Source: Amygdalobacter nucleatus (lineage in GTDB: Bacteria; Bacillota; Clostridia; Saccharofermentanales; Fastidiosipilaceae). From it: DNA of 64,000 bases. The translations under genes were made by a program, and so were the position numbers. The stretch spans positions 674,001 through 738,000 of the forward strand of contig NZ_JARFNM010000001.1 in assembly GCF_029167365.1 (NCBI RefSeq), read 5' to 3'. This document shows, in pieces, positions 9,179 to 48,742 of this stretch. Position 1 is the stretch's first letter. Each line of letters starts with the position of its first letter. The notes below the pieces were generated by a model, which had not been told where the DNA came from, ran no database searches, and worked only from the letters and a program-made list of their open reading frames with translations.

Positions 9179-10123
9179 ATGCATTTAACAAGTAAACAAA
9201 AATTGGGTGTATTTGCAATTTTTTGTAGTTCGGTGCTGGTCCTAACTTGCTTTATTTTTGCAATATTTCATCAAACAAGTGAAACTGTTTACCCAGAAGC
9301 AACCTATGATTTTTATGTCGCTGATTACAGTTCAGTTTTGGATGATGCGACGATTGAATATATCGTGAGAGAAGCAAATAATTTAGCTTCAAAGACGAAA
9401 GCGCAGGTCGTGGTTGCAACGGTGCCCGACACGCATGAAGATAGCTTAGAGAAATATAGCATTAATTTGGCAAATAAGTGGAAAATAGGCGATGAAAAAT
9501 TAGACAATGGCATTTTGCTTTTATTCACGACTGAAGATGCGCATGTTCGCTTAGAAGTTGGCCGTGGCCTAGAAGGTATCATTAATGACGGCAAAGCTGG
9601 GCGAATTTTGGATCGTTATGCAGTTGAAGCTAAGAATGCAGGTGAGTGGAATCAGGCTGCTTACGATACTTTCAACGCCATTTGTCGACAAATTTACAAG
9701 GCATACAACCTTGAATGGCCAGCTTATATGAATGAGATGTATGTGCGTAAGAATGTTACATTTGACCAGAGTAAGAAGACTTTGCAGACAGATCTGGTTT
9801 TCCCAAGCAAAAAAGTTATTTTGAATGAGCGGCCAATTGGTCAACAAATTTTATTCGCGTTCCTTGCTGCTTTGTTCATTTCATCTGTACTAGCAATTAT
9901 TTTGGCTAGTTTCGTGATGTCATTGATTAGACAAGCTAAGGCAAGTCCTTATTATCGGGATAGGCTCAATAATGACATGCTATTTTGGACTTTGCTGAAT
10001 GTGTGGTCTAATTCTAATCGTGCAAGGCGTCATTCTTATTGGTCGAATCATGGCGGAGGCTGGTCGTCAGGCGGCTCATTTGGCGGAGGCGGCTCTTTTG
10101 GTGGTGGCGGTGCTAGTCGCTGA
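9179..10123 (+). CDS. TPM-domain (YgcG-like) membrane protein with glycine-rich tail
   Basis: This 314-residue protein has an N-terminal membrane segment (about 9-30), an exported TPM_phosphatase domain (about 42-165, with VVATVPDTHEDSLEKY and LEVGRGLEGIINDGKAGRIL), a second membrane segment (about 221-247), and a C-terminal tail ending in repeated GGGGSFGGGGASR. The domain order and tail are those of YgcG-type proteins. It sits 42 bases after lemA, the usual pairing. The TPM domain has been linked to acid phosphatase activity in plants, but in bacteria the role is unclear. Confidence 0.9.
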   Translation: MHLTSKQKLGVFAIFCSSVLVLTCFIFAIFHQTSETVYPEATYDFYVADYSSVLDDATIEYIVREANNLASKTKAQVVVATVPDTHEDSLEKYSINLANKWKIGDEKLDNGILLLFTTEDAHVRLEVGRGLEGIINDGKAGRILDRYAVEAKNAGEWNQAAYDTFNAICRQIYKAYNLEWPAYMNEMYVRKNVTFDQSKKTLQTDLVFPSKKVILNERPIGQQILFAFLAALFISSVLAIILASFVMSLIRQAKASPYYRDRLNNDMLFWTLLNVWSNSNRARRHSYWSNHGGGWSSGGSFGGGGSFGGGGASR

Positions 10124-28792: not shown

Positions 28793-28844
28793 TAGTAAAA
28801 GCACTATTTTCAGTGAGATAGTAAAAGCACTATTTTCAGTGAGA
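28793..28844 (+). repeat. Perfect tandem repeat, 26 bp x 2
   Basis: Each unit runs from TAGTAAAAGC to TTTTCAGTGAGA and contains a small CACT-N5-AGTG inverted repeat. The first unit spans 28793-28818 and the second 28819-28844, with no mismatches. Candidate relaxosome or replication-protein binding sites. Confidence 0.85.
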
Positions 28845-28856
28845 TAGCAAGCATAT

Positions 28857-35344: not shown

Positions 35345-35512
35345 TCGCAAAATTGTCTAAAATGGCTTGATTACAAGCTATATAGAGAATGAAAAATGGC
35401 TACTGGTACTCAAATGGTACTGGAAGTAAAAAAGAATAAATTGAATAATAGTTCCAAGTGGTTTACATTTGGACAAAAAATTGAGACTTTTAATTAGTTT
35501 GTGTATATAAAC
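35345..35512 (+). other. Possible left end of a second, older guaA element
   Basis: GGTACT-CAAAT-GGTACT (35405-35421) followed by GGAAGTAAA has the same 6-5-6 layout and orientation, and a similar downstream sequence, as the left arm site GATACT-N5-GATACTAAAAGTAA. It lies 61 bases after the core repeat (81 in the intact element). No gene is seen here. Confidence 0.5.
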
Positions 35513-44895: not shown

Positions 44896-45906
44896 ATGAA
44901 AGCTATTGTTGCTACTAAAGATCGTAAAGCTGCAGTTGTAGAGAAAGAGTTTCGTCCATTAAGAGCTGGTGAAGCTTTGCTAGATATGCTTTGTTGTGGT
45001 GTTTGCCATACAGACTTACATGTGAAGAATGCTGATTTTGGTGATAAGTCTGGTGTTGTGCTCGGACATGAAGGCATTGGTGTAGTAAAAGAGGTTACTC
45101 CTGGCGTAACTTCTCTCAAAGTTGGTGATCGTGCAAGTGTAGCATGGTTCTTTGAAGGATGTGATTATTGTGAATATTGCACATCTGGTCGCGAAACACT
45201 TTGCCGTTCAGTTCTGAATGCTGGCTATACAGCTGATGGTGGTATGGCTCAAGAGTGTATCGTAACAGCTGATTATGCTGTCAAAGTACCTGAAGGATTA
45301 GATTCAGCAGCTGCTTCTTCAATTACATGTGCTGGCGTTACAACATACAAGTCTTTGAAAGAATCAGGTGTTCGTCCAGGTGAGTGGATGCTCTTAGCTG
45401 GCTTAGGCGGATTAGGCAACTTGGCTTTATAATATGCTAATAATGTCTTTGGCATGAAAGTTATTGCAATGGATATTAATGATGGTCAGTTGGAGTTTGC
45501 TCGCGAGTGCGGTGCTGATATTTGTGTCAACCCAAATAAGGAAGATGTTGCCAAGTTAGCTATGGATAAAGTCGGTGTTTGCCATGGTGCAGTTGTTACA
45601 GCTGTTAATAAGGCAGCTTTCAACACAGCAGTTAATGCTGTACGGGCTGGTGGTTGCGTAGTTGCTGTTGGCTTGCCAGTTGAAACAATGTATCTCTCTA
45701 TCCCACGTTTGGTTTTGGATGGTATCCGTGTCGTTGGTTCCTTAGTTGGTACACGTCAAGACTTGGCTGAAGCTTTCCAATTTGGTGCTGAATGTAAGGT
45801 TGTTCCTAAGTGCCAGATGCGTCAAATGAAAGACATTAATGATATCTTTTATGAGGTGGCAGCTGGTAAGATTCGTGGCCGTATGGTTATCGATTTGAAG
45901 CACTAA
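44896..45906 (+). pseudogene. Zinc alcohol dehydrogenase (AdhP type), interrupted by an in-frame TAA
   Basis: If the stop at codon 179 (45430-45432) is read through, the product has 336 residues with full AdhP features. These are the catalytic zinc site Cys37 (CCGVCHTD), His58-Glu59 (GHEG) and a later Cys; the structural zinc Cys at 89, 92, 95 and 103; and the NAD-binding [10 protein letters not shown] before the stop and VIAMDIND after it. The frame continues without any base lost. The stop sits where relatives have Gln (LGNLALQYA), so one base change, CAA to TAA, explains it. As written, only half of the enzyme would be made. The second half could restart at ATG 45454 but lacks a ribosome site. 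Confidence 0.85.
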
Positions 45907-46140: not shown

Positions 46141-47811
46141 ATGAATTTCGAGAAACTATATACTTTATTAGACAAAAAGTCTGACGAAATGATTAAAAAC
46201 CGTCGCTATTTGCATGAGCATCCAGAAGTATCTTTTCAGGAAGAAAAGACGAGCGAATTTATTCTCAAACATTATGCCGATAAAGATGTAAAAGTTGAAT
46301 ATCCTTTAGGCACACATGGTATAAAAGTTACAATCGATTCAGGTAAACCTGGCAAAACAGTGGCGCTTAGAGCTGACTTTGACGCTTTGCCAATTCAAGA
46401 AGAAACAGATTTACCTTTTGCATCTAAAAATGGTGCGATGCATGCTTGCGGCCATGATGGTCATACAGCCTATTTGTTAGCTTTAGCTGATTGTTTAATT
46501 GAATTAAAATCTGAATTCACAGGTAAGGTAGTTATCTTGCACCAACATGCTGAGGAGGCTCCTCCAGGAGGTGCGAAAGAGATGATTGAAGCTGGTGCTT
46601 TAGAGGGCGTAGATGCTGTATTTGGTTGCCATTTCATGAATATGATGCAACCAGGCAAAGCCTATTACCACGCTGGCCCAACCCAACACGCTCGGTCCAA
46701 ATTTATCATCAAAGTTCAAGGCCAAGGCGGCCATGCATCCATGCCACAAGATGCTAACGATGCAATTTTGATTGCTAGCCAAGTTGTTATAAATTTACAA
46801 TCGATTGTATCAAGGCGCATCAGTTCTATGGAGTCAGCAGTATTAACAATCGGCTCATTTGATGGTAAGGGTCAAGCTAATATTATAAAAGATTGTGTCA
46901 CATTAGAGGGTGATGTGCGTTGCCTAACTGATGAAACAAATCATTTCATTGAGAGGGAAATAAGACGTATTTGTGTTGGAATAGCACAGGCTTATGCTTG
47001 TGAGATAAAAGTCGATTACACAATTGATTATCCTGTGTTGTATAATGATACAAAATTGACTGAATTTGTGTACAAAACTCTGCAAAAAGCTAAGATTCCT
47101 GAGCTGAAAGGTGTAGAGGATAGTGGTATTCAAAATCCGTCAGAGGATTTTGCTTATTATGCACAAGTTAAACCGGCATGCTTCTTTTATATAGGAGCTA
47201 AACCTGATGCAGAAGCGGTTTATCCGCATCATCATCCAAAATTTGAGATTAATGAGGAGGCTTTAATGTTAGCTGCTAAATCTGTTGGAACTATTGCTTT
47301 GCAATATTTGAATGATCCTTGTATTTGCGATGAAAAGTGTCAATGTGAACCTGCTTGTGATTGCGGTGAAAGCTGTGATTGCAGAGAGAACTGTGATTGT
47401 GGCGAAAACTGTGATTGCGGTGAAAGCTGTGATTGCAGAGAGAACTGTGATTGTGGCGAAAACTGTGATTGCGGTGAAAGCTGTGATTGCAGAGAGAACT
47501 GTGATTGTGGCGAAAACTGTGATTGCCGAGAGAGCTGTGATTGTGGCGAAAATTGTGATTGCGGTGAAAGCTGTGATTGCAGAGAGAACTGTGATTGTGG
47601 CGAAAACTGTGATTGCGGCGAAAACTGTGATTGCGGTGAAAGCTGTGATTGCAGAGAGAACTGTGATTGTGGCGAAAACTGTGATTGCAGAGAGAACTGT
47701 GATTGTGGCGAAAACTGTGATTGCAGAGAGAACTGTGATTGTGGCGAGAATTGTGATAGTGAAGCAGAAAGTAACTGTGAAAAAGACTGTAATTGCACAA
47801 AAGATTGTTAG
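46141..47811 (+). CDS. M20-family amidohydrolase with a long Cys-rich repeat tail
   Basis: Residues 1-392 form a complete M20 peptidase/aminoacylase of the HipO/YkuR class. The metal site is Cys103, His105 (HACGHDGH), Glu138-Glu139 (HAEEAPPGG), His164 (GCHF) and a His in HHHPKF near 364. The family normally ends near residue 390-395. Here 163 further residues (394-556) follow, made of about 24 hexapeptides, mostly CDC(G/R)E(N/S), and a final Cys-rich end (SNCEKDCNCTKDC). I count 53 Cys in this tail, spaced as CxC pairs every six residues. Asp and Glu are also frequent, so the tail is very acidic. It has no signal peptide, so it should be in the cytoplasm. Metal binding is inferred. No such fusion is known to me. 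Confidence 0.9.
   Translation: MNFEKLYTLLDKKSDEMIKNRRYLHEHPEVSFQEEKTSEFILKHYADKDVKVEYPLGTHGIKVTIDSGKPGKTVALRADFDALPIQEETDLPFASKNGAMHACGHDGHTAYLLALADCLIELKSEFTGKVVILHQHAEEAPPGGAKEMIEAGALEGVDAVFGCHFMNMMQPGKAYYHAGPTQHARSKFIIKVQGQGGHASMPQDANDAILIASQVVINLQSIVSRRISSMESAVLTIGSFDGKGQANIIKDCVTLEGDVRCLTDETNHFIEREIRRICVGIAQAYACEIKVDYTIDYPVLYNDTKLTEFVYKTLQKAKIPELKGVEDSGIQNPSEDFAYYAQVKPACFFYIGAKPDAEAVYPHHHPKFEINEEALMLAAKSVGTIALQYLNDPCICDEKCQCEPACDCGESCDCRENCDCGENCDCGESCDCRENCDCGENCDCGESCDCRENCDCGENCDCRESCDCGENCDCGESCDCRENCDCGENCDCGENCDCGESCDCRENCDCGENCDCRENCDCGENCDCRENCDCGENCDSEAESNCEKDCNCTKDC
47356..47751 (+). repeat. 18-bp tandem repeat, 22 near-perfect units, coding
   Basis: Each unit is TGTGATTGC/T-(GGT/GGC/AGA/CGA)-GAA/GAG-AAC/AGC. 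Units are grouped in a higher order of three (GES, REN, GEN; 54 bp), seen three times in a row at 47356-47517 and then again in altered form. High identity at silent positions suggests recent expansion by slippage or recombination. The other frames and the opposite strand also stay open here only because the unit length is a multiple of three. Confidence 0.95.
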
Positions 47812-47838
47812 TCTCGCTTGATGCGACTACTAATGTTG

Positions 47839-47876
47839 AAGCACTCAACAAATTAAGCTTGGGTGCTTGCTTTTTA
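47839..47876 (+). terminator. Terminator of the amidohydrolase gene
   Basis: AAGCACTC (47839-47846) pairs with GGGTGCTT (47861-47868, one G-U pair), then GCTTTTT. Confidence 0.75.
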
Positions 47877-47899
47877 ATAGCTAGAAAGTGAGGACTTTT

Positions 47900-48742
47900 A
47901 TGCGCATAATGAAGAAAATTCCTGGTGGAACGTTACTTATATCTATGTTGATAGCAGCTATAATCCATACATTTTGCCCTGATCTATTCAAAATTGGTGG
48001 TATGACAGAGGCGTTGTTTAGTGGTAGTTCCATGAATTTTATCCTAGGTGCAGCTGTCTTTGTTTCTGGTTGTAGCCTGAATTCATCCAGCTTACCTAAA
48101 GTAATTAAACGTTACGGAACACTCTTAGTTTTTAGAACCATTTTAATTATTTTAGTTTGCTTAGCTTTCTATTATGCTTTTGGCGTTCCAGGTATAGCAG
48201 GTATCAGCACTTTAGCCTTTGTTTGCGCTATAACTTCCGTCAATCCAACGCTATTTTTGGCTTTAGTTTCAGATTGCGGTGATGAAATTGACCAGTGAGC
48301 TTTTAGCTTTATTTCGCTATTCTCAACCCAAGTTATTCCAATGTTTATCTATGGCTTAATGTCACCAACAGAAATAGACTTCATGCCAATTATCTCAACT
48401 TTGATACCACTTATTAGTGGTATTGTGATTGGCAACTTAGATAAAGAACTTGGCAAATTTTTGGCCACATGTATGCCTTTCTTAATTGTTGTTTTAGGTT
48501 GGGCAGTTGGCCTAGGCATTAATTTGTTGGAGACCGTGCGAGCTGGCTTAGATGGTATTTTAATGACAGCTATTTACTATGTCTTTACGTTTGTACCGAT
48601 GCTGTTTGTCGACAAATTAGTTGTTAAACATGGCGGTCTATCAGCTTCAGCTATCGTTACTTTAGGTGTTGTTTTGACAGCTGTACTTACGCCAAACTTA
48701 GTGAAACATTTTTCGACAAATACTAAAAATGGAGGCCAATGA
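47900..48742 (+). pseudogene. KdgT-like 2-keto-3-deoxygluconate permease, interrupted by an in-frame TGA
   Basis: Starting at ATG 47900 (GAGG upstream), the frame runs to DCGDEIDQ, stops at TGA 48296-48298, and goes on in the same frame as AFSFISLFSTQVIPMF to 48742, 280 residues with the stop read through. KdgT features are clear: KKIPGGTLLISMLIAAIIHTF at the start, ITSVNPTLFLAL, and GIVIGNLDKELGKFLA. Relatives have a Gly at the stop position (GAF or GAY), so one base, GGA to TGA, would explain it. About ten membrane segments if intact. Its last bases overlap the antiporter gene (ATGA). Confidence 0.8.

Follow-up and report, generated by a model that had tools for sequence, protein, structure and literature searches.

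A period-six coding repeat array encodes an acidic, cysteine-rich tail on an M20D amidohydrolase of Amygdalobacter nucleatus

The locus

The window, by which we mean the whole stretch of 64,000 nucleotides that was analysed (G+C 36.8%), contains on its forward strand an open reading frame of 556 codons (46141-47811). Its product consists of an M20D amidohydrolase core followed by an acidic tail rich in cysteine, and most of the tail is encoded by a tandem array of 18-bp units (Table 1). The stop codon of this gene is followed by a likely intrinsic terminator, recognised by eye as the inverted repeat AAGCAC...GTGCTT with a run of T; the candidate forms a hairpin in the RNA fold and is not listed by the terminator scan, which has a loop limit of 8.

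Table 1. Coordinates of features in the window; numbering starts at the first letter of the 64,000-nucleotide stretch
Feature	Position	Strand	Basis or remark
M20D amidohydrolase core, residues 1-392	46141..47316	+	dinuclear-metal hydrolase, IAA-amino acid hydrolase / aminoacylase type
Cys-rich acidic C-terminal tail, residues 393-556	47317..47808	+	composition, pLDDT, absence from relatives
Two degenerate upstream units, CICDEK and CQCEPA	47320..47355	+	in array register
Array of 22 x 18 bp	47356..47751	+	order ABCABCABCDEABCFABCBCBG; sequence, TRF, unit parsing
Degenerate downstream units CDSEAE, SNCEKD, CNCTKD, C	47752..47808	+	in array register
Likely intrinsic terminator	47842..47875	+	inverted repeat and T run, by eye
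Zinc alcohol dehydrogenase frame	44896..45906	+	one TAA at 45430-45432
KdgT-type permease frame	47888..48742	+	one TGA at 48296-48298, otherwise open
Match to Rfam SpR18 sRNA (RF02446)	35370..35502	+	82.6 bits
Perfect 26-bp tandem duplication	28793..28847		2.1 copies, 100% match
Short 18-bp tandem repeat	10069..10110		ends the ORF of a TPM-domain protein (9179-10123)

The core is that of a conventional member of its family. It scores 323 bits against TIGR01891 (cut-off 153.75) and matches the Pfam families Peptidase_M20 and M20_dimer; the CpsA carboxypeptidase equivalog NF040868 gives 318.2 bits where 500 are needed. The best solved relative is a putative aminohydrolase from Staphylococcus aureus (PDB 4ewt, 2.6e-142), and the AlphaFold model of the core, with a pLDDT of about 90 or above, superimposes on chain 4ewt_A with a Foldseek TMt of 0.98. 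C103, H105, E139 and H164 are invariant in an alignment of 30 sequences, and the core carries an HHH motif at 363-365 in which H364 is nearly invariant; together, this Cys-His-Glu-His-His set (the last His from 363-365) provides what we take to be the dinuclear metal ligands of the M20D family. Judged from these matches, the tail sits on an otherwise normal, intact M20D amidohydrolase core that carries the metal ligands of its family.

The frames that adjoin the array gene, a zinc alcohol dehydrogenase and a KdgT-type permease, are each interrupted by a single stop codon, and two further M20 copies in the genome (C1:1431077 and C1:749142) also contain stops. Since both neighbours carry single nonsense changes and stops recur in the two M20 copies, the interruptions are likely to reflect decay rather than recoding.

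Architecture of the array and the tail

Tandem Repeats Finder (TRF) reports a period of 18 bp with 22.3 copies at 47356-47757 and also scores periods of 54 and 72 bp, and unit parsing resolves the array into 22 exact 18-bp units in a single reading frame. The original prediction, made from the letters of the DNA, was thus exact in the coordinates, unit length, number and frame of the array. By translation, the units are A (CDCGES), B (CDCREN), C (CDCGEN) and D (CDCRES), while E, F and G are silent variants that encode the same residues as C. Across the tail, the identity at a lag of 18 is 0.736, a measure that never exceeded 0.47 when the codons were shuffled 5000 times, and the 164 tail codons are free of stops and frameshifts. 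The open reading frames in other frames over the same DNA (47291-47851 and 47340-47798 on the minus strand, 47312-47821 on the plus strand) stay open merely because a stop-free 18-bp unit stays open, and they are not regarded as genes.

The units are arranged in blocks. The 54-bp triplet ABC, encoding GES-REN-GEN, occurs five times with its silent sites included, a count that none of 50000 shuffles of the unit order reached (mean 0.45), and the BC pair occurs six times, which 5/50000 shuffles equalled. The higher order of 54 bp is therefore genuine, as had been proposed from the recurrence of the triplets, though it is confined to 15 of the 22 units; elsewhere it is interrupted by 36-bp and single-unit pieces. 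Unit identity at lag 3 is unexceptional when taken alone (equalled by 3039 of 20000 shuffles), because the 3′ end is made up of 36-bp BC pairs and two other blocks break in. By eye, unit F resembles a hybrid of A and C and unit D a hybrid of B and A, which looks like what slippage or unequal exchange would be expected to leave behind. The longest exact direct repeat in the array measures 117 bp at an offset of 54 bp. Recent stepwise expansion, a further element of the original prediction, finds good support in the block structure and in the homogenised silent sites; the steps of 18 and 54 bp that it named are both implied, with 54 bp as just one of at least three sizes (18, 36 and 54 bp).

The genome collections that were searched contain one genome per species, and no second genome of the genus was found in them; the length of the array is known from one genome. 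The source genome comprises 1,614,203 bases in three contigs, and its 16S rRNA agrees with the published BVAB2 primers (PMC2212641) at 22 of 22 bases for the forward primer and 16 of 24 for the reverse. For A. nucleatus KA00274T, a genome of 1.61 Mb with 39.3% G+C has been reported, obtained from CCS reads of a PacBio Sequel IIe, together with a 16S similarity of 96.5% to A. indicium (PMC11318147), which we take to be the BVAB2-like species. If this is the genome in question, the assembly was built from accurate long reads, and the array is likely to have the correct copy number.

The 164 residues of the tail include 53 Cys, 53 Asp/Glu, 11 Lys/Arg and no His, with 25 CxC motifs, a composition that makes metal or thiol sites plausible. 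The six-residue register extends beyond the array on both sides through degenerate units that had previously been overlooked. In these flanking units, Cys is found at 9/11 expected positions compared with 2/20 for the other consensus residues (Fisher p 1.3e-4), a test weakened by the fact that the flanks were delimited by eye, for their likeness to the array. This pattern makes Cys the preferred candidate for what was selected, or for the seed from which the array grew. Inside the array, variation affects four of six third codon positions compared with two of twelve first and second positions; this excess is not significant (p = 0.11), and selection within the array is thus unproven. The structural model has a pLDDT below 50 over nearly the whole tail, which is predicted to be disordered, and the tail modelled alone reaches a mean pLDDT of 46.4 and a pTM of 0.23.

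Distribution among relatives

All long open reading frames were compared at 112 loci (L002-L113), comprising paralogues from the same genome, 80 genome_contigs loci and relatives from 58 genomes. Of the 125 open reading frames matched, 122 extend at least to where the core stops, and three partial matches were left uncounted; two loci yielded no open reading frame. The tail is absent from all 122 homologous frames that reach the core end: the longest leftover is 24 residues, and no leftover has more than two Cys. In the nearest sisters (genomes G021 and G055) the protein ends 2 and 7 residues past the core. In a quick tree, the array protein clusters with L086 and L087, both tail-less and both from the same order (99% SH-aLRT), within a clade that is otherwise rich in Bacilli.

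Searches for the tail by pattern gave a similar picture. In its own genome the general Cys pattern has 25 matches, 23 of them in the tail and two scattered singles (C1:295796 and C1:741344). Over the order, a pattern of four CxC-x3 units matched 33/188 genomes, the source genome included; the order loci retrieved (L122-L151 minus L123, which belongs to the source genome; not every match had a locus) contain no acidic Cys tail, and their matches look like chance or like wrong-frame readings of other repeats. With the tail itself as a protein query, matches were obtained in 12/188 genomes of the order, 4/391 of the class and 5/398 of the phylum, counting the source genome each time. By inspection, and the source genome aside, only a GrpE in the class sample (L182) is truly Cys-rich in a plausible frame. 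The strict pattern CDCxExCDCxExC was found in the source genome only among the 398 genomes of the phylum sample, a pattern of three CDC motifs had no match in viral contigs, and phage DNA contained no match to the array. A tblastn search of plasmids returned 47 records, all below 60% identity and not checked singly.

Function and origin of the tail

We consider it probable that the product of the array is a thiolate tail of metallothionein-like character, disordered and specific to the lineage, which is attached to a metalloenzyme, grew by in-frame duplication and binds soft metal ions or buffers thiols. A short extension containing CxC would have arisen after the lineage of the gene parted from its nearest tail-less relatives and would then have lengthened by 18, 36 or 54 bp at a time, through slippage during replication or through unequal recombination; with steps of these sizes, growth of the repeat never shifts the frame. 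The C-acid-C-x-E-x blocks may be binding sites for metal ions of soft or borderline character, Zn(II) or Cu(I) being the likeliest, and might thereby hold bound cofactor metal near the enzyme or enlarge the thiol buffer of the cell, with a capacity that the repeat number would set. The in-frame array, the intact core, the absence of the tail from relatives, the Cys kept in the flanks and the block-wise homogenised units all speak for this reading, which has precedents in HspA of H. pylori and in EC20 (see below). The two adjoining genes, each carrying a stop and marking the surroundings as decaying, speak against it, as do the lack of a metallothionein profile match and the non-significant codon-position excess inside the array.

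The same observations bear on two other accounts of how the array came to be. According to one, slippage amplified a seed rich in Cys codons at a tolerant C-terminus, a neutral or selfish expansion that left the tail merely harmless. The restriction of the tail to a single genome among so many homologues, its predicted disorder, homogenised units suggestive of mutation-driven spread and stops in the neighbouring genes that hint at weak regional constraint are all compatible with such an origin. However, the old flanking units retain Cys selectively, 164 codons have stayed free of stops and frameshifts, and 53 free thiols on a cytosolic protein would be unlikely to be chemically neutral. Because selection within the array is unproven and both neighbouring genes are interrupted, neutral growth keeps a place as a possible, if rather doubtful, explanation. 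The other account, which is the full reading of the original prediction, is that of a contingency-type coding VNTR whose repeat number changes frequently from strain to strain and is selected for the tuning of metal or thiol capacity. Long, near-identical in-frame units and the 117-bp direct repeat would make a good substrate for slippage and recombination, and in-frame structural variation including VNTRs has been reported in coding ppe genes of M. tuberculosis (PMC12817950). The mixed units D, F and G and the degenerate flanks indicate, on the other hand, that old units persist among the others, and hence that turnover is not extremely rapid. We regard frequent, selected length change as unlikely, though not markedly so; it is compatible with the thiolate-tail explanation, and our confidences in the two overlap.

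Two structural alternatives fare considerably worse. A period-six solenoid resembling a left-handed beta-helix, in which 18 residues (one 54-bp unit) would form one coil with a Cys ladder, could draw on NCBIfam models of the LpxD hexapeptide type, which match the tail with E-values down to 1.1e-7 while remaining far under their cut-off, and on a few short period-six bridges in the full-length model. Hexapeptide repeats of the left-handed beta-helix require aliphatic residues, though, and the tail has Cys and Asp at the positions concerned; moreover, the 18-residue phase is disrupted by BC pairs and single units, and neither the full-length model nor that of the tail alone is confident over this stretch. 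We therefore set the solenoid aside as very improbable. Still less credence is given to selection of the array as an RNA or DNA element, be it an mRNA rod or hairpins, with the protein as an incidental product. It is important to point out that the mRNA fold is much stabler than that of dinucleotide shuffles (z = -7.67). Yet synonymous recodings fold at least as well as the native sequence in 39 of 100 random and 54 of 100 repeat-preserving cases, and in 6 of 100 under the strictest control, in which the tail's own codons are redealt. Measured against recodings, the native fold is ordinary and a role as RNA is therefore unsupported; the single-stranded DNA fold is weak (z = +1.58), Rfam has no match over the array, and nucleic-acid structure as the selected feature was rejected as close to refuted.

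If the thiolate tail does bind metal, it would be a chelator made of Cys repeats, natural in origin and genetically encoded, that is fused to a metalloenzyme; it would also illustrate in a simple way how part of a protein can grow by whole repeats without risk to the frame. In a probable bacterial-vaginosis-associated anaerobe, metal binding by the tail would also bear on how zinc or copper is coped with at a mucosal surface. Should the length of the array vary, strains could readily be typed by it.

Comparison with known systems

With roughly one-third Cys (53/164) and many CxC motifs, the tail has the composition of metallothioneins. In contrast to these small free-standing proteins, it belongs to an open reading frame of 556 residues, and it is acidic, whereas metallothioneins are Lys-rich. 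No metallothionein profile matches it: Pfam returns LED_rpt only, under its cut-off, NCBIfam gives low-complexity or period-six matches that lie far under theirs, and the lone metallothionein in the PDB search of the tail has E = 0.07. By any profile, then, the tail is no member of the metallothioneins. The LED_rpt, adhesin and LpxD profile matches were dismissed, together with the PDB matches of the tail, as effects of period or composition.

Closer in architecture is the GroES homologue HspA of H. pylori, whose Cys/His-rich C-terminal extension is reported to sequester nickel (PMC4671568). Both proteins join an ordinary enzyme or chaperone core to a private C-terminal extension rich in metal ligands that relatives lack; unlike the His- and Cys-containing extension of HspA, the array tail is 164 residues long, has no His, is built from 22 repeats at the DNA level, belongs to an M20D hydrolase and is a putative metal binder. 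The HspA tail is short. Genetically encoded tandem repeats of acidic residues and Cys also occur in EC20, a synthetic phytochelatin of Glu-Cys repeats that chelates metals in bacteria (PMC4611968). EC20 is engineered, whereas the array is natural, follows the consensus CDCxEx with a period of six and is attached to an enzyme. With coding VNTRs, such as those of the M. tuberculosis ppe genes, the array shares a unit length that is a multiple of three and lies in the coding frame; those VNTRs are polymorphic, whereas the array has been read from a single genome. In the literature as far as it was covered, we found no M20 enzyme described with a Cys-rich tail, nor, in titles and the beginnings of abstracts, a GrpE so described.

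The GrpE of genome G736, from the same class (Pfam 122.2 bits), starts with the acidic tail ECHCNEPCECEKECSCGEENKCNENCNC. Like the array protein, it is a housekeeping protein that bears an acidic tail (ECHCNEPCECEKECSC...) with CxC-x3-CxC spacing; the protein is a different one, however, and its tail is N-terminal, short and made of few, diverged units. Such a Cys tail on GrpE was seen in 1/391 genomes of the class and 1/297 of its own order. This one case is a hint that housekeeping proteins may have acquired tails of CxC-x3-CxC spacing convergently. A broader proposal, that disordered acidic thiolate tails of this spacing were repeatedly added to unrelated housekeeping proteins of host-associated Clostridia (the M20D hydrolase and GrpE) to act as private buffers for metals or thiols, here adjustable in length with a unit number tuned within the species, strikes us as improbable.

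Other features of the window

Upstream in the window, the match to the SpR18 sRNA, a Streptococcus family, exceeds the gathering score of 60. Its middle and 3′ half agree largely letter for letter, though the host is not a Streptococcus, and the stretch may possibly be a mobile or shared element. It lies downstream of a small open reading frame with a sub-threshold match to sigma-70 region 4. The window also contains two further, shorter tandem repeats (Table 1), one of them at the end of the frame of a TPM-domain protein.
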